Source of the DNA: Candidatus Ornithospirochaeta stercorigallinarum
GTDB lineage: Bacteria; Spirochaetota; Spirochaetia; Sphaerochaetales; Sphaerochaetaceae
Assembly (NCBI GenBank): GCA_018711525.1
Contig: DVIF01000005.1
Span: 1-35,443 of the forward strand
Reading direction: 5' to 3'
Length of the DNA stretch: 35,443 bases
Below the pieces are notes generated by a model, which was given only the letters and a program-made list of their open reading frames with translations, was not told the DNA's origin and searched no databases. The translations under genes were made by a program, and so were the position numbers. Below, one piece after another: positions 17,928-32,834 of this stretch (the first letter of the stretch is position 1; the number at the start of each line of letters is the position of its first letter).

Positions 17928-18947
17928 TTAAAGCTGAACGTCTGCCCAGTTTGAAATAACACCAGGGGCGGCCTTGAAAGATTCAAGAGCTGCATCAACC
18001 TTGGCTCTGATTTCATCTGTAACAAGGTTGCTGAGTGCCGGGTTGTAATCGAATACGAAACCATCGTTGTTGAAGTTCATAGGAATACATACACCGCCCT
18101 TTACTCCTTCATCAAGACTGTTGATAAGACCGACAACGACAGCTGTATAGTTGTATGCGGAGGCAGCTACGCACTTTGCCTGCCCCTCAGGAGTCTCAAG
18201 CTGTGCAAGATCCTGTCCAAGCCAGAGGACATCAGGATACTCTGCACAAGCTCTTAAAGCGCCAATCGCCTGCTGGGAAGCACCAGTGAGGACATCAGCT
18301 CCAGCGAGAATCTGAGTCGTTGCAAGTTCGCCTGAACGTACATAGTCTGAGAAGCTTCCAATGAATGCGACATTGAGGGTTGCATCAGGATTGACCTCCT
18401 TGACTCCGAGTACGAAACCTCTTGCATAACGTGCGGCATCACCACTGTCGACAGGTCCGACGAATCCGATATTGTTCTTCTTCGTCAGCATACCTGCAAG
18501 AAGGCCTGAAAGATATCCTGTCTCCTCGGACTCCGGCATATATGTGAATACGTTATCACCTACGATATCGCTTGAAGTTCCAAATGCAAATGATACATCA
18601 GGGAATTCGGCTGCAAGATCGGAGACCATGTTCTTGTACTGCGCACCATGGGCGATGATCAAATCGAAACCATCGGCGATATACTGCCTTGCGATTGATT
18701 CTGAATCCACGGTTGTCATTCTTTCGGAATATTCATAATGAATCTTTCCCGGGAGCTGCTCCATTGCACCAAGGATTCCTTCATGCATGGACTGGCACCA
18801 GCCTCTGTCATCGATAGTATTCTCGATTATGAGAGCGACCTTGTACTGTCCGTCATCAGAGCTCTCTGCGGCTTCCGCACTTCCTCCTGCGAAAACGAAT
18901 GAGCATGATACGAGCAGGACAACTAGAGCTAAAAATAGTTTCTTCAT
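17928..18947 (-). CDS. BMP-family (TmpC/PnrA-like) ABC substrate-binding protein
   Basis: A 339-residue extracytoplasmic binding protein of the basic membrane protein family; T. pallidum TmpC/PnrA of this family binds purine nucleosides. The signal peptide contains LVSC (Cys15, possible lipobox) and then FVFAGGSAEA. The mature protein shows ALIIENTIDDRGWCQSMHEG, comparable to the ligand-contacting IDD...G segment of the family, plus 'GFVGPVDSGDAARYARGFVLG'. The Trp-Cys there differs from PnrA's Ser-Phe, so a ligand other than purine nucleosides is possible. Start ATG at 18,947 has only a weak ribosome site; a strong GGAGG lies about 45 nt upstream within an inverted-repeat leader. Confidence 0.92.
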   Translation of the reverse strand: MKKLFLALVVLLVSCSFVFAGGSAEAAESSDDGQYKVALIIENTIDDRGWCQSMHEGILGAMEQLPGKIHYEYSERMTTVDSESIARQYIADGFDLIIAHGAQYKNMVSDLAAEFPDVSFAFGTSSDIVGDNVFTYMPESEETGYLSGLLAGMLTKKNNIGFVGPVDSGDAARYARGFVLGVKEVNPDATLNVAFIGSFSDYVRSGELATTQILAGADVLTGASQQAIGALRACAEYPDVLWLGQDLAQLETPEGQAKCVAASAYNYTAVVVGLINSLDEGVKGGVCIPMNFNNDGFVFDYNPALSNLVTDEIRAKVDAALESFKAAPGVISNWADVQL

Positions 18948-22382: not shown

Positions 22383-23828
22383 TCAAAGGCTATCACCGAA
22401 ATCTGCTTTAAACTTCTTTACAAGCTTATCCTGCCAATCTGATGTAGGCTCAAGACGACCGAAGAAGAATCTCAGGGAAGATGGTTCCTCTACGAATCTA
22501 AGTCCTCCTACGAGCTCTCTGTTATCATACAGCCACTTGATCCTATCCACTGCATATTTAACCTGAGAGAGTGTGAATACCCTTCTTGGCATTGCAAGGC
22601 GGAGAAGTTCAACAGAAGCAAGATGCTCACTTCCATCCTCCTCCCTCTGCTCGGAGATAGTACCTCTCTCCATTCCCCTTATGCCACCGGCAATATATAC
22701 AGCCGCTGCAAGCGCCCCGGCAGGATACTCCTCCTGCCTTACCTGAGGAATGAATTCAAGGGCATTTAGGTGGCAACCCAGCCCTCCTGCAGGAGTTACG
22801 ACGGGGACCCCGTTTTTAACAAGCTCATCTGTCATGTATTCAATGAAGAGCGGCCCTTGTGATATGACATCCATATCCATCGTCTCTTCTAGTCCGACAG
22901 CCATAGCCTCCATCTCTCTCACACTCATACCACCATAGGTGAGAAAACCTTCGAACATAGGTACAAGCTCACGCATCTTCAGATAAAGGTCCTTACGCTT
23001 CGTAGCAATTCCACCGCCACGGGCGAAACCAAGCTTGCGGGCAGAGAAGTATATGATATCCATCGCATCCGAAATCTCTTTCGTGATCTCTCTTATACTC
23101 TTATTCCTACAGCTTTCCTCCCTGGTCTTTATGAAATAGAGATTATCCTGCAAAAGGGAGGCGTCCATCACCGTAAGGATTCCGTTCTCTCTTGCAATAC
23201 GGGAGACTTCCTTTATGTTCTCAAGTGATAGCGGCTGACCTCCGATAAGGTTTGTTCCAGCCTCTAAACGGATGAATGGAATGTTCTTTCTCTCACGCTC
23301 TATAAGGGAGCATAGCTTATCCAGGTCGAAATTCCCTTTGAACGGATATTCGCTTGTGGTCTTCACACCTTCATCTATCACAAGCTCCTCCACCCTTCCT
23401 CCGAGCCTTGTGATATGCGCCTTGGTGGTTGTGAAATGATAGTTCATCGGGATGATCGTACCCTTCTTCACATATGTCATGGCGAGGATGTTCTCTGCAG
23501 CCCTACCCTGATGCGCAGGAAGGAAATAAGGTGTATCGAATATCTCTTTCAGTTTGTCGGTAAGACGGGTGAACGTGGCACTTCCGGCATAGCTGTCGTC
23601 AGCCACCATCATCGCAGCCAGCTGGTTATCACTCATCGCGTTGACACCGCTGTCAGTAAGCATATCGAGGAATATGTCCTTGTTTTTAAGGAGGAACGTG
23701 TTGTTTCCAGCCTCCTTTATCGCCTCTGCCCTTCTATCGACATCCACAAGATCGAGCTTCTGGACTATTTTGACCTTGTGAAGCTCCAATGGAATCTTCT
23801 CGCCTGAGTAGAACTTTATCTCTGCCAT
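22383..23828 (-). CDS. Tryptophanase-like PLP beta-eliminating lyase (divergent active site)
   Basis: A 481-residue PLP enzyme of the tryptophanase/tyrosine phenol-lyase family, which splits aromatic amino acids to pyruvate, ammonia and indole or phenol. Conserved features are Tyr80 (DDSYAGS), the HQGR motif (106-109), Asn193 before GGQP, Asp222, and the PLP Lys265. Two usually invariant positions differ: the Arg three residues after the cofactor Asp is Leu225, and the Lys before the Schiff-base Lys is Arg264 (SARKL instead of S-A/G-KKD). The reaction may thus differ from indole formation. The ribosome site AGAGG precedes the ATG. The gene converges on an amino acid importer operon, and repeated ATGCA motifs lie upstream. 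Confidence 0.85.
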   Translation of the reverse strand: MAEIKFYSGEKIPLELHKVKIVQKLDLVDVDRRAEAIKEAGNNTFLLKNKDIFLDMLTDSGVNAMSDNQLAAMMVADDSYAGSATFTRLTDKLKEIFDTPYFLPAHQGRAAENILAMTYVKKGTIIPMNYHFTTTKAHITRLGGRVEELVIDEGVKTTSEYPFKGNFDLDKLCSLIERERKNIPFIRLEAGTNLIGGQPLSLENIKEVSRIARENGILTVMDASLLQDNLYFIKTREESCRNKSIREITKEISDAMDIIYFSARKLGFARGGGIATKRKDLYLKMRELVPMFEGFLTYGGMSVREMEAMAVGLEETMDMDVISQGPLFIEYMTDELVKNGVPVVTPAGGLGCHLNALEFIPQVRQEEYPAGALAAAVYIAGGIRGMERGTISEQREEDGSEHLASVELLRLAMPRRVFTLSQVKYAVDRIKWLYDNRELVGGLRFVEEPSSLRFFFGRLEPTSDWQDKLVKKFKADFGDSL

Positions 23829-23877: not shown

Positions 23878-23932
23878 ATGCAAATTCAAGTAAAATATGC
23901 AAAATTATGCATATTTATTTAAATATTATGCA
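23878..23932. repeat. Helically phased ATGCA repeats upstream of the tryptophanase-like gene
   Basis: ATGCA occurs at 23,878, 23,897, 23,907 and 23,928, spaced 19, 10 and 21 bp, close to whole helical turns. Within the cluster, AAATATGCA-N6-TGCATATTT (23,893-23,916) is a perfect 24-bp inverted repeat. It fills the gap between the antitoxin-like gene and the lyase start and is a likely regulator binding region. Confidence 0.5.
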
Positions 23933-23933
23933 A

Positions 23934-24200
23934 TCATATTGGATTGTTCTCAAGTTTCAGGTCTTCAAGGAGGGCCTCATTGAGCCTGTTTATCTCTTCC
24001 AGCTCCTCTGGAGGGCCGTCCCAATCAATCAACTCCTGGTCATTTATCTCATACTCTCTTGAATAAGGGATGACCACATATTTAGGAACGCTGTCCTTAT
24101 AGATTACGGCAACACCGTCCTCATCTACAGCATCAAATATCTTGCGATGGTCGTTTTCCACTTCACTGATGTTGAAAATGTCTTTTAATTCTACCTTCAT
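23934..24200 (-). CDS. Phd/YefM-like antitoxin, no partner toxin visible
   Basis: An 88-residue acidic protein whose N-terminal 50 residues follow the Phd/YefM pattern (FNISEVENDHRKIFDAVDED, then AVIYKDSVPKYVVIP): a short helix, a 'set element aside' region and a beta hairpin used for DNA binding. The C-terminal half is Glu/Leu-rich and probably disordered until bound to a partner. No small toxin gene lies on either side. A TATAAT box six bases before the ATG and a 14-bp palindrome next to it suggest autoregulated, nearly leaderless expression. Confidence 0.7.
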   Translation of the reverse strand: MKVELKDIFNISEVENDHRKIFDAVDEDGVAVIYKDSVPKYVVIPYSREYEINDQELIDWDGPPEELEEINRLNEALLEDLKLENNPI

Positions 24201-24206
24201 GGAATG

Positions 24207-24230
24207 ATTATAACATACGCAGCACTGCGT
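24207..24230 (-). promoter_or_regulatory. Promoter -10 plus palindromic operator of the antitoxin-like gene
   Basis: On the minus strand, TATAAT (24,207-24,212) lies six bases before the ATG. The perfect inverted repeat ACGCAG-CA-CTGCGT (24,217-24,230) covers the spacer, where a bound autorepressor would block polymerase. No convincing -35 is seen (CCTCAA at 17 nt). Confidence 0.55.
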
Positions 24231-24236
24231 TGAGGC

Positions 24237-24265
24237 AAAAATTATGGAGGTAGTCGCCTACCTCC
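24237..24265 (-). terminator. Intrinsic terminator of the DUF3798 ABC operon
   Basis: On the minus strand, stem GGAGGTAG/CTACCTCC is closed by a GCGA (GNRA) tetraloop and followed by ATAATTTTTG. It sits about 20 bp after the last gene of the operon. Confidence 0.8.
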
Positions 24266-24285
24266 GGTAAAAAAGATACATGCAA

Positions 24286-24747
24286 TCAGAAAGCCATGAG
24301 GCTTGCACTGTCATCAAGCACAACCTCGTCTGCACTCGGGTCTTCTGCTACGATGGCCTGACTTTCGAAATGCTTGAGCCATTCCTCCTGAGGAGAGTCC
24401 GGGTTGGCAACAAGATACGGCAGATAGAGAATCATCATGTTCTCCCCGACTGGGATCTTGATGTCCCTTTCGAACGTGTGCTCTTCCCAGTTGCTGTCCA
24501 CATATGTAACAGCAATCGTATGCCTCTGTCCTGTAACAATCGACTGGTCCCTCATCCTGGAATAGATCGGGAGCCCTTCGACTCCATCAATTGCAACAGT
24601 CACCTCATCAAGGGCTTTGATATCTTCAATCTTGTTGTTATCCAAAAGGATTGTATGCTGCTTGCCGATGAAGAACATCAATACGCCGAGAAGGATTACA
24701 AGAACAATCGCAGCGATGCGGATATAAAATGATCTTCCCATTTTCAT
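24286..24747 (-). CDS. Small membrane-anchored protein of the DUF3798 ABC operon
   Basis: A 153-residue protein with one N-terminal membrane helix (about residues 6-27, IAAIVLVILLGVLMFFIG) followed by an extracytoplasmic domain of roughly 120 residues, rich in beta-prone segments, with an acidic tail. I do not recognise a characterised family. ATG 24,747 has GAGGAGG 7 nt upstream and overlaps the previous permease's stop by one base; a GTG one codon earlier is too close to that site. Tight coupling to the permeases suggests an accessory subunit of the importer, perhaps contacting the binding protein or permeases outside the membrane. Confidence 0.78.
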   Translation of the reverse strand: MKMGRSFYIRIAAIVLVILLGVLMFFIGKQHTILLDNNKIEDIKALDEVTVAIDGVEGLPIYSRMRDQSIVTGQRHTIAVTYVDSNWEEHTFERDIKIPVGENMMILYLPYLVANPDSPQEEWLKHFESQAIVAEDPSADEVVLDDSASLMAF

Positions 24748-25847
24748 CACTCTGCCTCCTCAAGTGCCTTCCTGGCTTCTCTTCTCGTCCTGATTTCATA
24801 AAGGACAAGAGCAAGTGTGATAACGCCATAGCTGACGAATACACGGAAATACTCTCCAAGCTGAGCCTCTCCGATAAGGTTTCTTCCGACAGTAGGTGCG
24901 ATTGTAAACATAGTATGGAAGAGAATGATTCCAATGAAAACATTCTTTATACTTGCCTTATCGACGCTGGCACCACCGACGAGAAGAGCTGCAATTGAGA
25001 ACATACCAATCTGTGAATGGCTGTTATAGGTGTTAAGGGTTCCGATGTTCTGAAGGTAGATGATCATACCGAATCCGGCGAATACCGTTGAGAGTATGAT
25101 TGAGAGGACCCTTGTCTTCTCGACCTTGATACCTGCCTGGCGTGCAACCTCCATATCCTGGCCTACAGCTCTCATATCCTGTCCGAGCTTCGTCTTTCTG
25201 AACCATATGATTACAAGACAGAATACTGCAACAAGGATGAATGTGGCGACAGGAACACTTGCACCGAAGATGTTGAGCGGAATCAGGTTATCAAGACTCT
25301 TTCTCATCGTCTCCAGGTTTACGGTGTTTCTTATACCATAACCACGAGGAAGTACGAGTGCGGAAGATGAGATAGGTATGATGGAGCCCATGAAGTAGAG
25401 TACGACGAGCTGATATACACCATTCATGAAGAATCCGATGATATAGCTCGTAACCATCTCCCTTCCCTTCGCATTGTTCAGGATGGTTCCACAAAGCCAT
25501 CCAAGAAGGATGGAAATAGGTGTGGAGATTATCGCGGCAAGCACCATTGCCGGGATTCCCACTACATTCCAATCAGAAACAAAGATAAGTCCGATCTGTC
25601 CGGCCATGGCTCCGAGAGTCATACCAAAGTTAAGTCCCATACCTGCCATGACAGGAATAAGAAGGGAGAGAACCAGGAAAGAGTTCCTTCCCAGACGGGA
25701 AAGTATCTCATTGAGAAGATATGATCCCGAATATCCTGAAAGAGGAATTCCAATTATACAGATACAGATGAAGAGAATTGGAACAAGATTGTTTATAGCA
25801 AGTTCTTTTACTGAGATCTTATTTTTCATATCTAGATTCCTACTCAT
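24747..25847 (-). CDS. DUF3798-system ABC permease (second permease)
   Basis: A 366-residue RbsC-superfamily permease with about ten helices. Characteristic segments are 'MAGMGLNFGMTLGAMAGQIG' near residue 70 and 'RQAGIKVEKTRVLSIILSTVFAGFGMIIY', the loop likely to face the ATPase. The N-rich GLNFG pattern is shared with the partner permease and differs from typical ribose permeases. AGGAGG precedes the ATG, which overlaps the upstream permease stop by four bases. Confidence 0.9.
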   Translation of the reverse strand: MSRNLDMKNKISVKELAINNLVPILFICICIIGIPLSGYSGSYLLNEILSRLGRNSFLVLSLLIPVMAGMGLNFGMTLGAMAGQIGLIFVSDWNVVGIPAMVLAAIISTPISILLGWLCGTILNNAKGREMVTSYIIGFFMNGVYQLVVLYFMGSIIPISSSALVLPRGYGIRNTVNLETMRKSLDNLIPLNIFGASVPVATFILVAVFCLVIIWFRKTKLGQDMRAVGQDMEVARQAGIKVEKTRVLSIILSTVFAGFGMIIYLQNIGTLNTYNSHSQIGMFSIAALLVGGASVDKASIKNVFIGIILFHTMFTIAPTVGRNLIGEAQLGEYFRVFVSYGVITLALVLYEIRTRREARKALEEAE

Positions 25848-26905
25848 CTTGTGACCTCCTGCTTTCTTGTCAGAGCGTAGAGGATCATACCGTTGGAGAC
25901 GATGATTCTGATAACCTCGGAAACATCCATCTGGATCAATCCGTTCATGACGCTCGGCGTCATAGTAAGGATTCCCTGGAAGAGAAGAGTACCGATGACA
26001 ACGTTGGCGATCGAGGCCTTATTGACGCTTGCTCCACCCAAGAGAACAGCACTTACAGCAGGAAGTGCCATATTGAACGGTCCCATATAAAGCTGAATGA
26101 AACCGAAAGACTGCTCATACACGATGATACCGACAGCTCCAAGCCATGTTGAAAGGATTACGGAAAGAGTCCTCATCCTGTCGACACTTACACCGCTTGC
26201 AGTTGCGAAAATCGGGTTTGAACCTACGGCTGTCATCGCAGTTCCTGTCTTTGTCCTGAGGAAAAGCCAGATCAGGAGGGAAAGGAATGCGAAGAACAGG
26301 ATGGTTCCTGTAGGAATTGCAAGGTGTCCGATCTTGATCCTGAGGAAGTTATCAAGGACTCCAAGATAAGCACCTTCGACGGAGATGGTCGTTCTCAGAC
26401 CGGTTCCAGCATATCCCCACACCATGGTCGGATTATCGTAAGGGAGGAGGAGCCACATGATACACATGAATGCGACAGATGAGAATCCTACATATGTAGC
26501 AATCATCATCTCTCCACCTTTAACCCTGTTCAAAAGTGCTCCATACCCCGCACCGAGGATTATCGCAAACGGAGTTGCAAACACTATGGCCATGAGGAAG
26601 CTTGAGAATCCTGTGAAACCGAACTCAATCGTCATGGTCGCGCCGAGGAGACCTGAGATGATTCCAAGAGGGAGACCGAAGTTAAGGCCACAACCGGAAT
26701 GCACCATCGGAACCATGGCAAGGACAAGGACGGCATTCATTCCGAACCTTGTAAGCATATCTGAGATTCCAGATGCGATGTTTACTTTCGCAAACGGTGC
26801 GATGATAAACAAAAGCACCAGGAAAAGAGTGATAATGAGTCTAGGCAGACCGAATGACTTAATAGCCTGCATCGACTTTTCCTTTAAAGCTGCTGCATCC
26901 ATCAT
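25844..26905 (-). CDS. DUF3798-system ABC permease (first permease)
   Basis: A 353-residue RbsC-superfamily permease paralogous to the next gene: it has HSGCGLNFGLPLGIISGLLG near residue 70 and 'TASGVSVDRMRTLSVILSTWLGAVGIIVY' in the cytoplasmic loop. The two probably form a heterodimer. Tandem ATGs at 26,905 and 26,902 both suit the GGAGG upstream. The gene overlaps the ATPase stop by four bases. Confidence 0.9.
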   Translation of the reverse strand: MMDAAALKEKSMQAIKSFGLPRLIITLFLVLLFIIAPFAKVNIASGISDMLTRFGMNAVLVLAMVPMVHSGCGLNFGLPLGIISGLLGATMTIEFGFTGFSSFLMAIVFATPFAIILGAGYGALLNRVKGGEMMIATYVGFSSVAFMCIMWLLLPYDNPTMVWGYAGTGLRTTISVEGAYLGVLDNFLRIKIGHLAIPTGTILFFAFLSLLIWLFLRTKTGTAMTAVGSNPIFATASGVSVDRMRTLSVILSTWLGAVGIIVYEQSFGFIQLYMGPFNMALPAVSAVLLGGASVNKASIANVVIGTLLFQGILTMTPSVMNGLIQMDVSEVIRIIVSNGMILYALTRKQEVTR

Positions 26906-28521
26906 TCAGCCTCCTTCATCTCACCAAGCATGAGAACTCCGAAGTCCTCACTTGGACGTGTAGCATCAAGAGTACCTGCTATCTTGCCATCATGGACGAC
27001 AGCAATCCTATCACAGATACTTCTAAGCTCTTCAAGCTCACTGGAAATCATGACGATGGTAGTACCATTCTCCTCATTGTATTTCTTAAGGGCTTCAAGA
27101 ACGAGCGCCTTCGCACCTACGTCGATACCACGTGTAGGCTCAGAAACGAAAAGCAGCTTAGGCTTCAGGGCAAAAGCTTTTGCCAGACAGATCTTCTGCT
27201 GGTTTCCACCTGAGAGCTGACGTGCCCTCTGCTTAGAGGATGTGCACTTGATCTGGAGGAGGTCGATGTATTCCTCTGTGACTTTCCTAATCGCGTCGTT
27301 ATCGCGGAACTTCACAGGTCCTATCTTCTTGAGGAAACTCTCATTAACCTGCATGGCCCCGAAGGATACGTTCCACTCAAGGGATTCATCGAGGAGAAGA
27401 CCTACTCCACGTCTGTCTTCCGACACGAATGCGATTCCAGAAGAAAGCGGATCGGATGGGGTGTTGAGCTTTACACTCTTTCCTTCAAACTCGACAGAGC
27501 CGAGTGCATAATAGAGCCCCATGATTCCATTTGGAATGCCGATCTTACCCTGGCCGGCAAGACCTCCAAGTCCGAAAATCTCACCTTTTCTTACTTCAAA
27601 CGAGACATCCTTTACCATCTCACCGGGCATATCTACACGAAGATTGGATACCTTCAGTGCGATTTCATCGCTTATGTGGCTTGTGTCGCGGACGACTCTT
27701 TCCTGTTTTACAGAGCGTCCTACCATCCAAGAAGCGATCTTCTGCACATCGGCTTCCTTCTTGTCCACATGCTTGATGATAAGGCCATCCCTCATGACCA
27801 TGATGGAGTCACAGACATCTATGATCTCCTGAAGGCGGTGGGAGATGAAGATGATTGCAATACCTGCTTCAGAAAGCATCCTCATTGCCTTGAGGAGGGC
27901 AATCGCCTCATGCTCTGAAAGAACCGCTGTCGGTTCATCAAGGACAAGGAGCCTGATGCCTTTGGCATCGGCGCTCTTCTTATCATCCTCCTTGCTCAGC
28001 TCTCTGGCAATCTCCGTGAACTGCTTATAGCCTACAGGGAGTGTTGATATCTTTTTATTTGCATCGAGTTCAACTCCAAGGCGTTCAATCGCCAAAAGAG
28101 CTCTTCTCTGCATTTCTTTCCTATCTACTGTATTGAGCCTTTTTCCAAAAAGCTCACTCATGACACTGTATTTCTCAGGTTCTCTGTTAAGAAGAATGTT
28201 TTCAGAAACCGTGAAATCCGGAATAAGGGAGAACTCCTGATGAACCATTCCGATGCCTTCTTTGATAGCATCTTCAGAAGAACGGAACTCAACTTTCTTT
28301 CCGTCTATGAGAATATCTCCGCCATAACCACCGGTGTCCCTAATCTCATCCATTCCGAAAAGGATTTTCATCAATGTGCTTTTTCCAGCACCATTCTCAC
28401 CGACGAGACCGAGAATCTCGCCTGGATATAGTTTGAAATTGATGTCATTAAGGACTTTGTTACCTGAGAATTCCTTACTGATTCCCTTCATCTCAAGAAG
28501 GGGTGTAGAAGAATATTCCAT
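26902..28521 (-). CDS. DUF3798-system ABC ATPase (two nucleotide-binding domains)
   Basis: A 539-residue RbsA/MglA-like double ATPase. Domain 1 has Walker A GENGAGKST, a modified signature LPVGYKQF and Walker B VLDEPTAVL. Domain 2 has a Walker-A-like GLAGQGK, a canonical signature LSGGNQQK and a Walker B of FVSEPTRGID, in which the Asp is replaced by Ser. One site is likely dominant for hydrolysis. The ATG at 28,521 with AAGGTG upstream is preferred over an upstream TTG at 28,548, which would start inside the intra-operon hairpin region. Followed by two permeases and the membrane-anchored protein in overlapping order. Confidence 0.9.
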   Translation of the reverse strand: MEYSSTPLLEMKGISKEFSGNKVLNDINFKLYPGEILGLVGENGAGKSTLMKILFGMDEIRDTGGYGGDILIDGKKVEFRSSEDAIKEGIGMVHQEFSLIPDFTVSENILLNREPEKYSVMSELFGKRLNTVDRKEMQRRALLAIERLGVELDANKKISTLPVGYKQFTEIARELSKEDDKKSADAKGIRLLVLDEPTAVLSEHEAIALLKAMRMLSEAGIAIIFISHRLQEIIDVCDSIMVMRDGLIIKHVDKKEADVQKIASWMVGRSVKQERVVRDTSHISDEIALKVSNLRVDMPGEMVKDVSFEVRKGEIFGLGGLAGQGKIGIPNGIMGLYYALGSVEFEGKSVKLNTPSDPLSSGIAFVSEDRRGVGLLLDESLEWNVSFGAMQVNESFLKKIGPVKFRDNDAIRKVTEEYIDLLQIKCTSSKQRARQLSGGNQQKICLAKAFALKPKLLFVSEPTRGIDVGAKALVLEALKKYNEENGTTIVMISSELEELRSICDRIAVVHDGKIAGTLDATRPSEDFGVLMLGEMKEAE

Positions 28522-28552
28522 TGCTTTAATCACCTTAATTGCAAACAAAATG

Positions 28553-28579
28553 CAAGGGGAGGCGTCCTCCCTCCCCTTG
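28553..28579 (-). terminator. Intra-operon stem-loop after the DUF3798 binding-protein gene
   Basis: A perfect 10-bp stem CAAGGGGAGG/CCTCCCCTTG with a 7-nt loop, followed on the minus strand by CATTTTGTTTG. It lies between the binding-protein stop and the ATPase start and probably acts as an attenuator or mRNA 3'-end stabiliser. Confidence 0.65.
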
Positions 28580-28603
28580 TGAAAAGTCAGCTATAAAAAT
28601 AGC

Positions 28604-29841
28604 TTACTTAACTGTATAAGCCCACTCAGGAACCTCAACTTCTGTAACGTGCATGTAACCCTTGCCCATTACATATGTATCCTGGTATACGAGGAAGTAG
28701 TTTCTAAGTCCTACGCCTGTATCAGCATTTACATAGTTGGCTCCGTTCCAAGATGCTCCTGGTGAATACTTTGCGAATGCCTTCATGATATCTGCTCTGT
28801 TGAGAAGCTCGCTCTCTCCACGGATAACGTTGATAGCATGCTGTCCGAGACCAGCAGATACTGTGTAGCCGTAGCTGTAAGCCCATGTTCCGAATCTTCC
28901 AGCACCACCGCGCTCTACAACTGTATCCTCAACTCTCTTGAGAATTGCAGGGAAGTCTCCTGATACGTCATCAAGCTGAACACCAAGAGCTCCAGGATAA
29001 CCCATGAGAGGAGAAGGAAGGTCGGCTTCGATGAAGTAACCAGCGCCAAGATTGATCAGCTGGCGGAGAAGCGGCTCTGTATGAGCATCGTTAGTACAGA
29101 AGAATGCTGTATTCGGTCCATACTGCTCGATCCATGTAGGAGTCTGCTCAAGGATGTACTGCTGAGCTCCTGCGATACCAACGTCGCTTGTCGGGTCTGG
29201 AGCGGAAACAGATACGAACTCCATTCCGAGCTCTTCACATGTCCTCTGCATGATTGCAAGACGGCGGCTCATTGTCTCCATTGAGAGGTGACGTGGGAAT
29301 GAGATGTGTACGAATGTATCACATCCAAGCTCATGAGCTGTATTGATGATGAGATATCCACGGGATACGAAGTCGTTGTTACTTACGAGGTCTGCAGCAG
29401 ATGCGATTACAGCAGGATCCTCATGAGCCTCACCTGCGAGACAGATGATGTCAGGTCTTGCTTCCTTGATTCTTCTGAAAGCCTCTGTTGTTCCAGGAAC
29501 AGCCTGGTTTACGATGACAGCCTTCATGAGAGGATCGTCGGCAAGTCCTGCGATAACGCTGATTGTCGTCTCCTGCTCTTCCATGAAGTTGTCAGGATAT
29601 GTCAGGTGCTGGATCATACCACCGTCTGCGACTGAGCCGTACTCTGCGATGAGAGCCTCAGCACCACGAAGGTCGTCCTCGCTCTGGCTGACAGTTCGGT
29701 TACGATTCCGATATGGAATTCCTCAGGAACAGCAGCAGCCTGAGTTTCTGTAGCAGCAGTTGTTGTACTCTCGGAAGCACCACCTGCAAATACAAATGAA
29801 GCTGTGAGGAGTACTAAGAGCAATGCTAATGCTTTTTTCAT
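28604..29841 (-). pseudogene. DUF3798 periplasmic binding protein, interrupted by a one-base frameshift
   Basis: The reading frame from ATG 29,841 (AGGAGG upstream) encodes a signal peptide ending FVFAGGASES and a Thr/Ala linker, then runs out of frame after HIGIVTEL. The continuation is in the -1 frame. Adding one C beside 29,697 on the plus strand (one G in the coding strand) restores IVTGTVSQSEDDLRGAEALI, leading into the rest of a roughly 412-residue protein. Downstream segments such as TYPDNFMEEQETTI, AVPGTTEAFRRIKEARPD and 'HISFPRHLSMETMSRR' match the DUF3798 family as I know it, a periplasmic-binding-protein-like family without an assigned ligand. All other operon genes are intact, so a sequencing error or recent mutation are both possible. 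Confidence 0.88.
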
Positions 29842-29877: not shown

Positions 29878-29919
29878 AACTGTATTGGTTAAGAGGGTCT
29901 ACTGCATAATAATACAGTT
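29878..29919 (-). repeat. Inverted repeat in the DUF3798 operon leader
   Basis: AACTGTATT (29,878-29,886) and AATACAGTT (29,911-29,919) are perfect 9-bp inverted arms separated by 24 nt, about 40 bp upstream of the binding-protein start. They could form an RNA hairpin or flank a regulator site. Confidence 0.45.
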
Positions 29920-29934
29920 TTTATAAAAAATAAT

Positions 29935-29986
29935 AAATATTTTCCCCTTTCCGGTTCAAGTCCGAGGCGGTAAAGGAAAAATATTT
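29935..29986 (-). promoter_or_regulatory. Terminator-like leader hairpin upstream of the DUF3798 operon
   Basis: Two 19-nt arms match at 16 positions; in minus-strand RNA two of the mismatches become G-U pairs, leaving one unpaired position. The stem closes a 14-nt loop and is followed by ATTATTTTTTAT. This looks like an intrinsic terminator inside the leader (attenuator) or a second terminator for the upstream operon. A weak promoter (TTGAAA-N16-TAAATT) can be drawn just upstream at about 30,032-30,060. Confidence 0.45.
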
Positions 29987-30059
29987 GATTTTTCTCGTTA
30001 TATTACAACAATATATTTTATTTACTATTTAATTTATCGTTGCAAAATGTATTTTCAAA

Positions 30060-30089
30060 GGAGGAGTCCGTCATGCAGGACGGTCCTCC
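30060..30089 (-). terminator. Terminator hairpin after the M20 peptidase gene
   Basis: On the minus strand GGAGGA-CCGTC pairs with GACGG-TCCTCC (2-nt bulge, 6-nt loop), 10 bp after the peptidase stop. The tail CTTTGAAAATAC is only weakly T-rich, so strength is uncertain. Confidence 0.55.
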
Positions 30090-30098
30090 ACTGAAAAC

Positions 30099-31409
30099 CT
30101 ATTTATACAAGTCTTTTATTATCTTCTGATAGAAAAGGACACCCTTTTCAAGGCAGGAGATTGATATGTTCTCATCCAATCCATGTATGCTCTGATACTG
30201 CTGTTCGTTTATCTCCAGGGGAGCGAAACGTATTACGTTCTCCGAAATCCTCGAGTAGTTCCTTCCATCCGTTCCACCTGTCATGGCATACGGACAGGTT
30301 ATGACATCGGGAAAGACCTCATGTACAGCCTCTTCAACGAATCTGAAAGCAGTTCCATCATGATCCACGACAGGACAGGCGTAATGCTTCATTATGACCT
30401 CGACATCTATATCGTATTTGGAAGCGATCGCCCTGAGCTTGTTTTCCGTGTAATCGGCATCCTCATGATGGATTACACGGCTGTTGCCGGTGACATACGC
30501 CCTCTCAGGAAGGACATTCAATCCGTTGGAGCCTCCTGCGGTTGTAAAAGCGAGGGTTGTTTTGATCATTGCAGTAGCAAGCAGGTTCATCCTTGGAAGG
30601 ACTCTGTTGAGCACTGGAGAGAGAAGTTTTGCATGGCGCAGAGCAAACCCCATCGCACCGGGGGTGTGCCTTCCCAGACGTCGGAACATCTCTATCGTCG
30701 TGTCGTTCATCTTCGCTTTGAACGGATCATGCCTTTCGATATCAGCCATGAACTTTCCAAGCCTTACAAGAGGAGTGTTCTTTCCAGGAGCAGATGCATG
30801 CCCTCCCTTTCCTTTTGCTACGAAACGGAAATTGCATGTACCCTTCTCAAGCGTCCCCATCATGGCAAAACGCCCTTTTGCACCTTTGAGCGGCTCGGAT
30901 TTTATCATCCCCCCTTCATCAAGGACTAAAAGAGGCTTGATCCCCCTCTCATCAAGATAATCCACAGCCATCTCAGCCCCCGGGCCTGAAGTCTCTTCGT
31001 TGTTTGAGGATGAGATATATACATCCATCTCAGGCACATACCCCGACTCTATCAGACGCTCACATGCTTCAAATATCGTACAAAGGGACCCCTTTGTATC
31101 GACAGTCCCGCGCCCCCAGACGCATCCTTCCGCGATATCTCCTGAGAACGGACCATGCTTCCATTCTCCTGTCGCCTCGACAACATCCTGATGACTCATC
31201 AGCACCAGAGGACGCTTTGAGCTGTCCTTCCCCTTCCACCTGAGAAGAAGCGCACCATCGAAAGAGTTGAATTCCACCGCGCCGAATACAGCGGGGAAAA
31301 GTTCTTTCAGTTTCGCCTGGAAACGCTCGAACTTCTCCTCGTTGTATTTTCCTATCTCACTGACAGTCTCTATCTGTATCATCTGAGAGAGCTTTTCTTC
31401 TATTTTCAT
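30099..31409 (-). CDS. M20-family metallopeptidase (carboxypeptidase S / PM20D1-like)
   Basis: A 436-residue two-zinc peptidase or amidohydrolase. The metal ligands are His73 and Asp75 (SHQDVVE), Asp104 (GRGTVDTKG), and the catalytic Glu138-Glu139 (NNEETSGPG); the VLDEGG segment and the late GGTDGRNY stretch are typical of the carboxypeptidase S/PM20D1 branch, which cleaves dipeptides or N-acyl amino acids. A dimerisation domain lies in the middle. There is no signal peptide, so it acts in the cytoplasm. ATG 31,409 has AGGTGG 8 nt upstream and is preferred to a GTG four codons earlier. It ends an operon with two membrane proteins, suggesting it processes what they import. Confidence 0.88.
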   Translation of the reverse strand: MKIEEKLSQMIQIETVSEIGKYNEEKFERFQAKLKELFPAVFGAVEFNSFDGALLLRWKGKDSSKRPLVLMSHQDVVEATGEWKHGPFSGDIAEGCVWGRGTVDTKGSLCTIFEACERLIESGYVPEMDVYISSSNNEETSGPGAEMAVDYLDERGIKPLLVLDEGGMIKSEPLKGAKGRFAMMGTLEKGTCNFRFVAKGKGGHASAPGKNTPLVRLGKFMADIERHDPFKAKMNDTTIEMFRRLGRHTPGAMGFALRHAKLLSPVLNRVLPRMNLLATAMIKTTLAFTTAGGSNGLNVLPERAYVTGNSRVIHHEDADYTENKLRAIASKYDIDVEVIMKHYACPVVDHDGTAFRFVEEAVHEVFPDVITCPYAMTGGTDGRNYSRISENVIRFAPLEINEQQYQSIHGLDENISISCLEKGVLFYQKIIKDLYK

Positions 31410-31421
31410 TTCCAATACCAC

Positions 31422-32099
31422 CTATTTCAAAATATGTTTTTTCCAGAGAATCCATGACAGCCCGATACTCAAGGCACCGCATGCGATGATCATTATGCTT
31501 GTCTGATTCATCAGAGACGGAACGATAATGCATATCAGAGTCATGAAAGAAAGAGGAAGCACCGTCAGTCGGAGGCTCTTCCTGAAATACTGGTATCCAA
31601 GAGCTCCGAAGAGCGCTGGAAGGACATTGTCGAATGCAGGACGGAGCACAGGATTCTCCAGAACCGGGGTCAGAGGAATCAGCAGAAGTACCCCTATGAA
31701 TATCACGACCATTGTGACAAGGGATGATGTTGCGACCGAAAGCGTCGATATGATCTCATTCTCCTTGCTTCCAACTTCAGCCTGTGCGATCTCCCGTGCA
31801 TTCGCAGCACATGGCAGCTTCAGGTTCGTGATGTTACCCGTTATGAACGAAAGATAGCTGGCACCGGGGCCAAGCAAAGGAACATATATCAGGTATTCAA
31901 CGATGCATGACGGAACATAGACGATCAGGACAGACCAGATAGCACTGAGAAAACCATTCCATTCGATTTCTGCATCAAGGAAATATGCAAAGAGAAAAGG
32001 AGCAGAAAGCAGCATCACAGCACCGATTGAGAGTCCAATGCGACCCATGCGATGCACGGAATCCGTATATTTTGAATAATCAAAGACTTCTTTTTCCAT
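31422..32099 (-). CDS. Uncharacterised polytopic membrane protein (partner of the DUF5058 protein)
   Basis: A 225-residue integral membrane protein with about six helices. A conserved-looking loop, 'GPGASYLSFITGNITNLKLP', lies between the helices and has the glycine/proline/asparagine character of a transport pathway. I do not recognise a characterised family. ATG 32,099 has AGGAGG 5 nt upstream; a GTG one codon earlier is too close to it. It starts 9 bp after the DUF5058 gene and is followed by the M20 peptidase gene, so a two-subunit transporter with a dedicated hydrolase is my inference. Confidence 0.75.
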   Translation of the reverse strand: MEKEVFDYSKYTDSVHRMGRIGLSIGAVMLLSAPFLFAYFLDAEIEWNGFLSAIWSVLIVYVPSCIVEYLIYVPLLGPGASYLSFITGNITNLKLPCAANAREIAQAEVGSKENEIISTLSVATSSLVTMVVIFIGVLLLIPLTPVLENPVLRPAFDNVLPALFGALGYQYFRKSLRLTVLPLSFMTLICIIVPSLMNQTSIMIIACGALSIGLSWILWKKHILK

Positions 32100-32108
32100 C
32101 ACATCCTC

Positions 32109-32834
32109 CTAAACGAACATCGACACCACGACAGCTCCAATCATCGCAAGGAGCATCGACAAGGCAAGAGAGAAGTTCTCAAACACCTTGTGCCTCCTGC
32201 TCACCAACTCGAAGAGGGCCATGAAAAGGGATGCCACTATGACAGTTGTGACAGGCACAAGATTCACAGATACGAACGCCTCTGCTATATACGAGCCGAC
32301 AAAAGTCGAACAGAGCCCTATCATCATGGCGACCATGGCCCATGATGCGTATCCTCCTCCACTGGTGTTGCTCTTCCTTCCTATCGCAAGTTTCGATGAA
32401 TACTTCTTCATCGTGAAAATCGACAGCAGACAGCCCCATATTATGCCTACGGTCATGACCAGCAATATAGTTGAAAGAGCAGAGACATCAAGGGATGACG
32501 AATTGAGGCTGAGGCCCATGCTGTTTGCGGCGATTTCCGCGACAGTCGCCTCATACTGCAGGTTGCCGATGACTGAGAGCCTGAGCCATGATGCGGGGAT
32601 TCCAAGGGAGCCGGAAAGGGCTATGACTCCCAGGAGTATGGAAACAGATGGAAGAACGGTGAAAGTGGCGGAACTCGTTATGGCTCGCCTGAGAACCCTC
32701 CTGTCCATTCCTATCTTTATACCCGCCCTGTAGCTTCTTACGATGAAAAGCACGCACAAGAGTGCTATAAAAAGGAGTATACCTCCAACGATTAGATAAA
32801 GTGGCAATGAATTTGCCGCTTCAATATATGGCAT
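32109..32834 (-). CDS. DUF5058-family membrane protein
   Basis: A 241-residue membrane protein with about six to seven helices. The N-terminal helix is followed by a basic loop (RSYRAGIKIGMDRRVLRRAI) and a hydrophobic 'FTVLPSVSILLGVIALSGSLGIPASWLRLSVIG' region that I recognise as the DUF5058 family, of unknown function. GGAGG lies 6 nt before the ATG. It is upstream of the second membrane protein and the M20 peptidase and 29 bp after the alcohol dehydrogenase gene, so all four may be one transcript. Confidence 0.78.
   Translation of the reverse strand: MPYIEAANSLPLYLIVGGILLFIALLCVLFIVRSYRAGIKIGMDRRVLRRAITSSATFTVLPSVSILLGVIALSGSLGIPASWLRLSVIGNLQYEATVAEIAANSMGLSLNSSSLDVSALSTILLVMTVGIIWGCLLSIFTMKKYSSKLAIGRKSNTSGGGYASWAMVAMMIGLCSTFVGSYIAEAFVSVNLVPVTTVIVASLFMALFELVSRRHKVFENFSLALSMLLAMIGAVVVSMFV

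Follow-up and report, generated by a model that had tools for sequence, protein, structure and literature searches.

We analyzed a five-gene operon on a contig of Candidatus Ornithospirochaeta stercorigallinarum (Spirochaetota; contig DVIF01000005.1 of GenBank assembly GCA_018711525.1), of which a stretch of 35,443 nucleotides, hereafter the window, was studied. The operon encodes a solute-binding protein of family DUF3798, a double ATP-binding subunit, two permeases, and a small membrane protein of family DUF6672, which together very likely constitute an ATP-driven importer of the ATP-binding cassette (ABC) type. Its promoter contains an ARG-box-like palindrome that is shared with argR, and there is good reason to expect control by ArgR in the group of loci referred to below as the Sphaerochaeta clade. 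The gene content, predicted folds, linkage, and shared operator motif were computed directly. The complete picture, a binding-protein-dependent ABC importer with DUF6672 in the complex, controlled by ArgR in the Sphaerochaeta clade and carrying an arginine-type cargo, is proposed tentatively.

Gene content and predicted folds

The five genes lie on the minus strand and run from 29841 down to 24286; this position and common strand, proposed in an initial annotation of the sequence, are borne out by the list of open reading frames (ORFs):

28604..29841, minus strand, DUF3798 solute-binding protein gene, a frame-broken copy with a signal peptide at the 29841 end (PF12683, E 1.6e-110)
26902..28548, minus strand, gene for a double ATP-binding subunit, RbsA/XylG-like, whose start codon may sit a few codons inside
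25844..26905, minus strand, permease 1 gene, BPD_transp_2, with the motif CGLNFGLPLG (ORF translation and Pfam)
24747..25847, minus strand, permease 2 gene, BPD_transp_2, with the motif MGLNFGMTLG (ORF translation and Pfam)
24286..24750, minus strand, gene for the DUF6672 small membrane protein (PF20377, E 3.3e-35)

A spacer of 55 bases separates the binding-protein gene from the ATPase gene, and overlaps of 4 bases are found at the ATPase/permease 1, permease 1/permease 2, and permease 2/DUF6672 junctions. By the curated Pfam cut-offs, the binding protein is a member of PF12683 (DUF3798; 369.3 bits, cut-off 24.6), and the small protein is a member of PF20377 (DUF6672; 121.5 bits, cut-off 24.3). 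The latter had been annotated as a 153-residue single-helix protein; the single helix is present in its AlphaFold model, while its length is 154 residues by the ORF list, and it belongs to an already described Pfam family. Two stretches of the ATPase match ABC_tran (E 9.9e-43), and the permeases, whose translations do contain the common GLNFG motif noted previously, match PF02653 (BPD_transp_2) with 63.1 and 60.4 bits (cut-off 26.8; E 2e-16 and 3e-17). PF02653 permeases are thus combined with an ABC ATPase, as in ABC importers of the BPD_transp_2 (RbsC/LivH) type.

None of the five proteins reaches the equivalog cut-offs of the NCBIfam models for ribose, xylose, arabinose, galactose, and autoinducer-2 (AI-2) importers. 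The best match of the ATPase is a XylG-type model (398.8 bits, cut-off 699), and the best scores of permease 2 and permease 1 are at most 28.5 bits (cut-off 398) and 19.6 bits (cut-off 379), respectively. In Pfam, the binding protein matches PF12683 and, weakly, PF13377, and it does not match PF02608, the family of BMP/PnrA nucleoside importers. Polar amino-acid importers of the ArtPIQM type consist of SBP_bac_3 and BPD_transp_1 subunits. Neither family is found in the five proteins at E<=0.001, and the operon does not match this type.

The binding protein of an intact relative (L158) is predicted to adopt the type I periplasmic-binding-protein fold (predicted local distance difference test score, pLDDT, 88.4). 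The top fold match of the DUF3798 protein is 3qi7 (Z 36.9, root-mean-square deviation 3.4 over 345 residues). The next matches, at Z 18–20, include LivJ/LivK/AmiC, kainate-receptor, and sugar-binding domains, which lie too close together for a ligand to be named. The AlphaFold2 model of DUF6672 (mean pLDDT 92.5) consists of one helix (residues 6–29) and an immunoglobulin (Ig)-like sandwich of about seven strands, which we take as probably periplasmic. This fold has no Foldseek match at E<=0.001, and the protein has no sequence match in the PDB. The extracellular domain of PepT1 was considered as a relative of DUF6672 and set aside, since its best Z of 8.3 may merely reflect a common sandwich.

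Distribution of the importer and linkage of DUF6672

DUF3798 is a common family. When named genomes were scanned with an alignment of this family, at least 566 loci were confirmed, and the best 80, kept for analysis, have Spirochaetota, Synergistota, Thermotogota, a Caldisericota metagenome-assembled genome (MAG), and a Bacteriovoracaceae MAG among their sources. Two chromosomes filed as plasmids also carry the system, with five genes in Fusobacterium vincentii (the fifth at 37 bits) and four in Acetoanaerobium noterae. Comparison of neighborhoods confirms that the five-gene order recurs, namely in Spirochaetota, Synergistota, Thermotogota, the Bacteriovoracaceae MAG, and Fusobacterium.

The loci were split by ATPase score into branches A and B (L163 and L188, both in branch A, are one locus counted twice). 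In branch A, 68 of 71 loci have a DUF6672 gene behind permease 2, and for 66 of them the distance is at most 192 bases; the three loci that lack the gene are L117, L151, and L187. Branch B has DUF6672 in none of nine loci and represents a four-gene importer. A one-helix protein of the DUF6672 type was not found behind permease 2 in the branch B loci other than L179 and L193. Of the best 80 named loci, 59 include both the ATPase gene and permease 2 and extend more than 600 bases past the latter, and DUF6672 follows permease 2 in 57 of these; the frequency is 11 of 21 among further loci, most of which were picked as unusual. In an ATPase tree calculated by a quick method, the branch B loci except L173 form one group with a support of 100 (Shimodaira–Hasegawa-like approximate likelihood ratio test, SH-aLRT), and the DUF6672-bearing loci except Fusobacterium form another with the three losses (support 98). 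Fusobacterium branches beside these groups, and the placement of L173, a long branch, is uncertain. Within a single Treponema-side clade (L196, L204, and L187), the distance between permease 2 and DUF6672 is 384 or 2478 bases, or DUF6672 is absent, as if being lost.

The same association is seen across 392 genomes of the window's phylum, where DUF3798 is above the cut-off in 92 genomes and DUF6672 in 77. DUF3798 is present in 76 of these 77 (the co-occurrence count took in 89 DUF3798 genomes, with places above about 130 bits); the contig of the exception (G350) begins inside the ATPase gene. A DUF3798 gene lies on the same strand, 4.1–6.6 kb upstream of DUF6672, in 71 of 80 DUF6672 places. Only one of the remaining nine is a true separation: in the single-contig genome G247, a block of ATPase, permease, permease, and DUF6672 genes is located 43 kb from the binding-protein gene. 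Four others (G350, G404:C95, G401, and G087) are on contigs that end within the operon, three (G029, G017, and G404:C100) have, by their coordinates, less than 4.1 kb of contig upstream, and G352 has no binding-protein gene in the 1.7 kb before its ATPase gene, with DUF3798 on another contig. DUF3798 places without a downstream DUF6672 number 26, and those that were fetched include branch B operons and lone binding-protein genes.

The counts in the two branches and in the phylum thus make DUF6672 a near-constant part of branch A, and not of DUF3798 importers overall. The separated block in G247 links it to the membrane complex rather than to DUF3798, and DUF6672 is probably a part of that complex. 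The initial annotation had described a complete five-gene importer, which agrees with these results; it had also regarded the small protein as an obligatory subunit, which is nearly so in branch A but fails for DUF3798 importers in general.

Lone DUF3798 genes were observed in L180, L183, L184, L189, L190, and L191; the sequence fetched around them contains neither the ATPase nor the permeases of this importer type. A 1.1-Mb genome resembling those of the T. pallidum group (L181, G113:C1:7317-13778) has two DUF3798 genes, one with an internal stop. No DUF6672 and no permease 1 match were found in this genome, although the empty permease result is weak by itself; it apparently retains two DUF3798 genes without the importer.

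An ARG-box-like operator and the putative cargo

Two ARG-box-like palindromes (no strand assigned), which the initial annotation does not mention, flank the operon:

29901..29918, ARG-box-like palindrome, 60–77 bases before the binding-protein start, 18.3 bits
23896..23913, second ARG-box-like palindrome, upstream of a tryptophanase-family gene (22383-23828), 13.7 bits

The motif was recovered independently from different promoters. A de novo search of 26 non-redundant binding-protein promoters (24 from the genus of the window and two from its class, the window's own being excluded as redundant) gave the palindrome tATGCA.AATT.TGCATa, with a log-likelihood of 115.6 compared to 33–37 in six shuffles. 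A pattern search of the window's genome located this palindrome directly before argR as well (G000:C68); at one mismatch or fewer, the genome has 41 sites, several of them inside genes, versus 5 for the reversed pattern. An independent de novo search of 16 non-redundant argR promoters returned AtTGCATAatTATGCAaT (168.2 versus 34–39 in four shuffles). Using a first model trained on the binding-protein promoters, argR was detected at p<=0.01 in 16 of 20 genus loci and the promoters of the ornithine carbamoyltransferase (OTC) gene at p<=0.05 in 13 of 16, several with TGAAT in one half. The same model placed 26 of all 113 binding-protein promoters below 0.05 and 10 below 0.01. It also detected, at p<=0.01, six of 14 genus copies of the tryptophanase-family gene, with a near-perfect palindrome at the window copy.

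A second model was then built without any binding-protein promoter, from 36 promoter sequences of argR and OTC alone. The best site of this model over the 35 kb of the window is 29901-29918, followed by 23896-23913. The Sphaerochaeta clade was defined as the ATPase group that contains Sphaerochaeta and the window (29 rows, support 99) plus L119, L120, and L143 (ATPase cut); in the NCBI taxonomy, Sphaerochaeta and Bullifex belong to the order Spirochaetales. In this clade, 24 of 44 non-redundant binding-protein promoters have p<=0.05, compared to one of 70 control promoters, which come from these loci, from five genus loci, and from the window (p-values by shuffling; Fisher 1.3e-11). The signal is found both in the genus (14 of 23) and in the rest of the clade (10 of 21; Fisher without the genus 5.3e-7), and at p<=0.01 the numbers are 16/44 and 0/70.

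ArgR itself is encoded in all 27 genus genomes searched; the protein from the window's genome combines a DNA-binding with an arginine-binding domain and contains a GSIAGDDT stretch. In E. coli, arginine importers are controlled by ARG boxes, which are semi-palindromes of 18 bp (PMC6640053), and the box of Streptomyces coelicolor argG, in an ArgR-bound fragment, has TGCAT and ATGC halves (PMC5839063). Taken together, these results and precedents strongly suggest that ArgR binds the motif as an ARG box. Since the palindrome is present in the operon promoter and shared with argR, the operon appears to belong to an ArgR regulon.

We propose the following model. In the periplasm, the DUF3798 protein would capture a small polar solute and deliver it to a permease composed of the two BPD_transp_2 paralogues, with one double ATPase powering the pair. 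DUF6672 may act as a subunit of the membrane complex or as a docking partner, held by its one-helix anchor with the Ig-like domain in the periplasm. The arginine repressor ArgR would control the operon in the Sphaerochaeta clade, in which the window is included by its ATPase. As ArgR control suggests an arginine-related cargo, the most likely solute would be arginine or a close relative, such as ornithine, citrulline, agmatine, or another cationic amino acid; we put this forward as a tentative assignment. A broader claim, that these operons define a new class of importers for arginine or its derivatives, present in several phyla, with RbsC/LivH-type permeases, a type I binding protein, a dedicated Ig-like DUF6672 subunit, and ArgR control in the Sphaerochaeta clade, is more doubtful.

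Several components of this model could be read differently. DUF6672 might serve in folding or quality control, or be an unrelated envelope protein, and simply ride in the operon. Its absence from L117, L151, L187, and the nine branch B loci would be compatible with a passenger, as would its distance of 2.5 kb in L204 and its high variability (mean column identity of 31% over 45 sequences, versus 61% for the strongly conserved binding protein over 40 sequences from several phyla). However, it is found with the ATPase-permease block wherever the surroundings are readable, even with the binding-protein gene 43 kb away, and a passenger role seems unlikely compared to membership in the membrane complex. 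The window's own copy could also be a decaying pseudo-operon, as its binding-protein gene is split between two open frames that overlap (29614-29841 and 28604-29617). The binding-protein genes of 30 loci fetched from relatives, out of 34 genomes with a match, are all unbroken over the stretch read (two of the 30 are cut by contig ends). The window's genome is a draft of 92 contigs and 83% completeness, in which an assembly error and a real loss look alike. The downstream frame is still a strong family match (614 bits), the remaining four frames are open, and the operator is the top-scoring site of the window; with a genome that is only a draft, decay is an improbable explanation.

Regarding the operator, the half-sites are mostly TGCAT, and not the TGAAT of E. 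coli ARG boxes, which would fit another regulator that governs argR and OTC together with the operon. This is very unlikely, because the length of the palindrome and its position in the promoter match ARG boxes, the S. coelicolor argG box has TGCAT and ATGC halves (PMC5839063), TGAAT halves do occur in several OTC promoters as well as in L098 and L144, and ArgR is present throughout the genus genomes searched. A more serious alternative accepts both the importer and its control by ArgR but not the arginine-related cargo: ArgR would be a broader regulator of nitrogen or amino-acid metabolism, and the cargo another amino acid, a peptide fragment, a nucleoside, or a sugar. This has a substantial chance of being correct. 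In the window's genome, the box also precedes the tryptophanase-family gene, an NlpA-type binding protein gene, and a regulator gene heading a BMP-type importer region; the binding-protein fold is equally suited to sugars and amino acids; and the neighbors in branch B include adenine deaminase, cytosine permease, and a RidA/amidohydrolase/aminotransferase set. On the other hand, the box is common to argR and OTC in the genus, at the frequencies given above, which ties the motif to arginine.

Further observations weigh against our proposal, and the cargo is its weakest step, since amino-acid regulators can control other transporters and the box is mostly absent beyond the Sphaerochaeta clade. 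The tryptophanase-family gene has a box too, and ArgR may therefore act more widely. The ArgR-controlled arginine importers of E. coli belong to another family. No arginine enzyme is found by name among 30 flanking proteins scanned with Pfam, and arginine deiminase, considered as a partner, is rejected because it occurs in none of the 27 genus genomes. The first model passes argR in four of 10 cases outside the genus and OTC at p<=0.01 in seven of 16, and the OTC promoter of the window's own genome fails (p 0.24). With the argR/OTC model, the box is weak or mostly absent outside the Sphaerochaeta clade: at p<=0.01 and p<=0.05, respectively, it is detected in 3/31 and 6/31 promoters on the Treponema side (controls, 1 and 6 of 119), in 0/16 and 1/16 in Synergistota and others, and in 0/10 and 2/10 in branch B. 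The binding-protein gene of the window itself is frame-broken.

Other features of the locus and relation to known systems

Four foldable elements are located in or near the operon:

28553..28579, minus strand, hairpin between the binding-protein and ATPase genes (folding of 28545-28610, z -5.0)
24246..24265, minus strand, terminator-like hairpin behind DUF6672 (folding of 24230-24290, z -2.75)
29930..30010, minus strand, foldable leader stretch (folding z -3.4)
30040-30100, hairpin upstream of the leader (folding z -4.1)

The first hairpin may cause the membrane genes to be less strongly expressed than the binding protein, and the last is probably the terminator of the upstream peptidase gene. 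The leader hairpin and terminator reported in the initial annotation are both supported by folding, but a simple terminator scan is near chance (6 found, 4.4 expected), and the hairpin calls thus depend on the folding z-scores. Aligned upstream regions of relatives have no apparent conserved structure in the leader and contain repeated TGCAT pieces instead. At Rfam gathering scores, a riboswitch search of 25 loci (19 of branch A and six of branch B) detected tRNAs only, and the window gave no match at all.

The tryptophanase/tyrosine phenol-lyase-family gene (22383-23828) adjoins the operon, and an 88-residue frame between the two (23934-24200) resembles Phd/YefM antitoxins below the cut-off (18.6 versus 29.8 bits). 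The region directly upstream of the operon (30099-32834) holds a DUF5058 gene and an M20 peptidase gene as well as a frame that matches no family. At 17928-18947, a gene for a BMP/PnrA-like binding protein (PF02608) heads a minus-strand gene run down to 14298, perhaps a second importer. In other genomes, the 30 flanking proteins, drawn from 20 branch A or lone binding-protein loci, are mostly of housekeeping families (grpE-dnaK-dnaJ-spoU, GARS, cyclase, leuS, trigger factor, groEL, PGI, FTHFS, and a tRNA synthetase). The others comprise some other transporters, a LacI regulator, an adenosine-specific kinase, and six proteins without a family. They give no common pathway from which a cargo could be deduced, and a link to chaperones was dropped as local synteny. 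The neighbors of branch B are varied, with those mentioned above among them. In 45 loci, no same-strand called gene starts within 35 bases after DUF6672, and the five-gene unit looks self-contained.

Both DUF3798 and DUF6672 are known Pfam families, and a structure of a DUF3798 protein has been solved. The system had been annotated as a candidate for an undescribed one, and its DUF3798 protein as having no assigned ligand. DUF3798 is mentioned in two papers of the full-text literature searched, which yields no ligand for it, no publication on DUF6672, and no description of the five-gene unit, of its division into two branches, or of its operator. Fusobacterium FN1590 and FN1899 appear in candidate-virulence and expression lists, TP0007 appears in proteomics (including a table of relative protein abundance) and resequencing of T. 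pallidum, and PF12683 is used as a solute-binding signature in one survey, with no ligand named in any of these passages. C. difficile CD2699-CD2702, considered as possible DUF3798 loci, were discarded, as they are something else in two published passages. The five-gene importer is found in many gut and sediment bacteria, and the apparent link to ArgR allows its cargo to be guessed and tested, as a likely regulator provides a short, testable list of ligands for a DUF3798 importer.

The system resembles the RbsABC/XylFGH (BPD_transp_2) sugar importers in its type I binding protein, fused double ATPase, and BPD_transp_2 permeases. It differs from them in having two distinct GLNFG permeases, a DUF3798 binding protein, and the additional DUF6672, and in reaching no equivalog cut-off. 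The Treponema RfuABCD riboflavin and PnrA/BMP purine-nucleoside importers have the same subunit set of a binding protein, a double ATPase, and two permeases, and RfuA (4iil) is among the fold matches of the DUF3798 protein. However, the binding protein here belongs to DUF3798 without a match to PF02608, and we know of no DUF6672 in either of these systems. The Clostridium difficile DUF3798 protein 3qi7, filed as a 'putative transcriptional regulator', shares family and fold with the binding protein (phmmer E 8.1e-26) at 21% identity. The E. coli ArtPIQM/ArtJ and HisJQMP systems use other binding-protein and permease families; they have ARG boxes before their importer genes, a feature that the operon described here probably shares.

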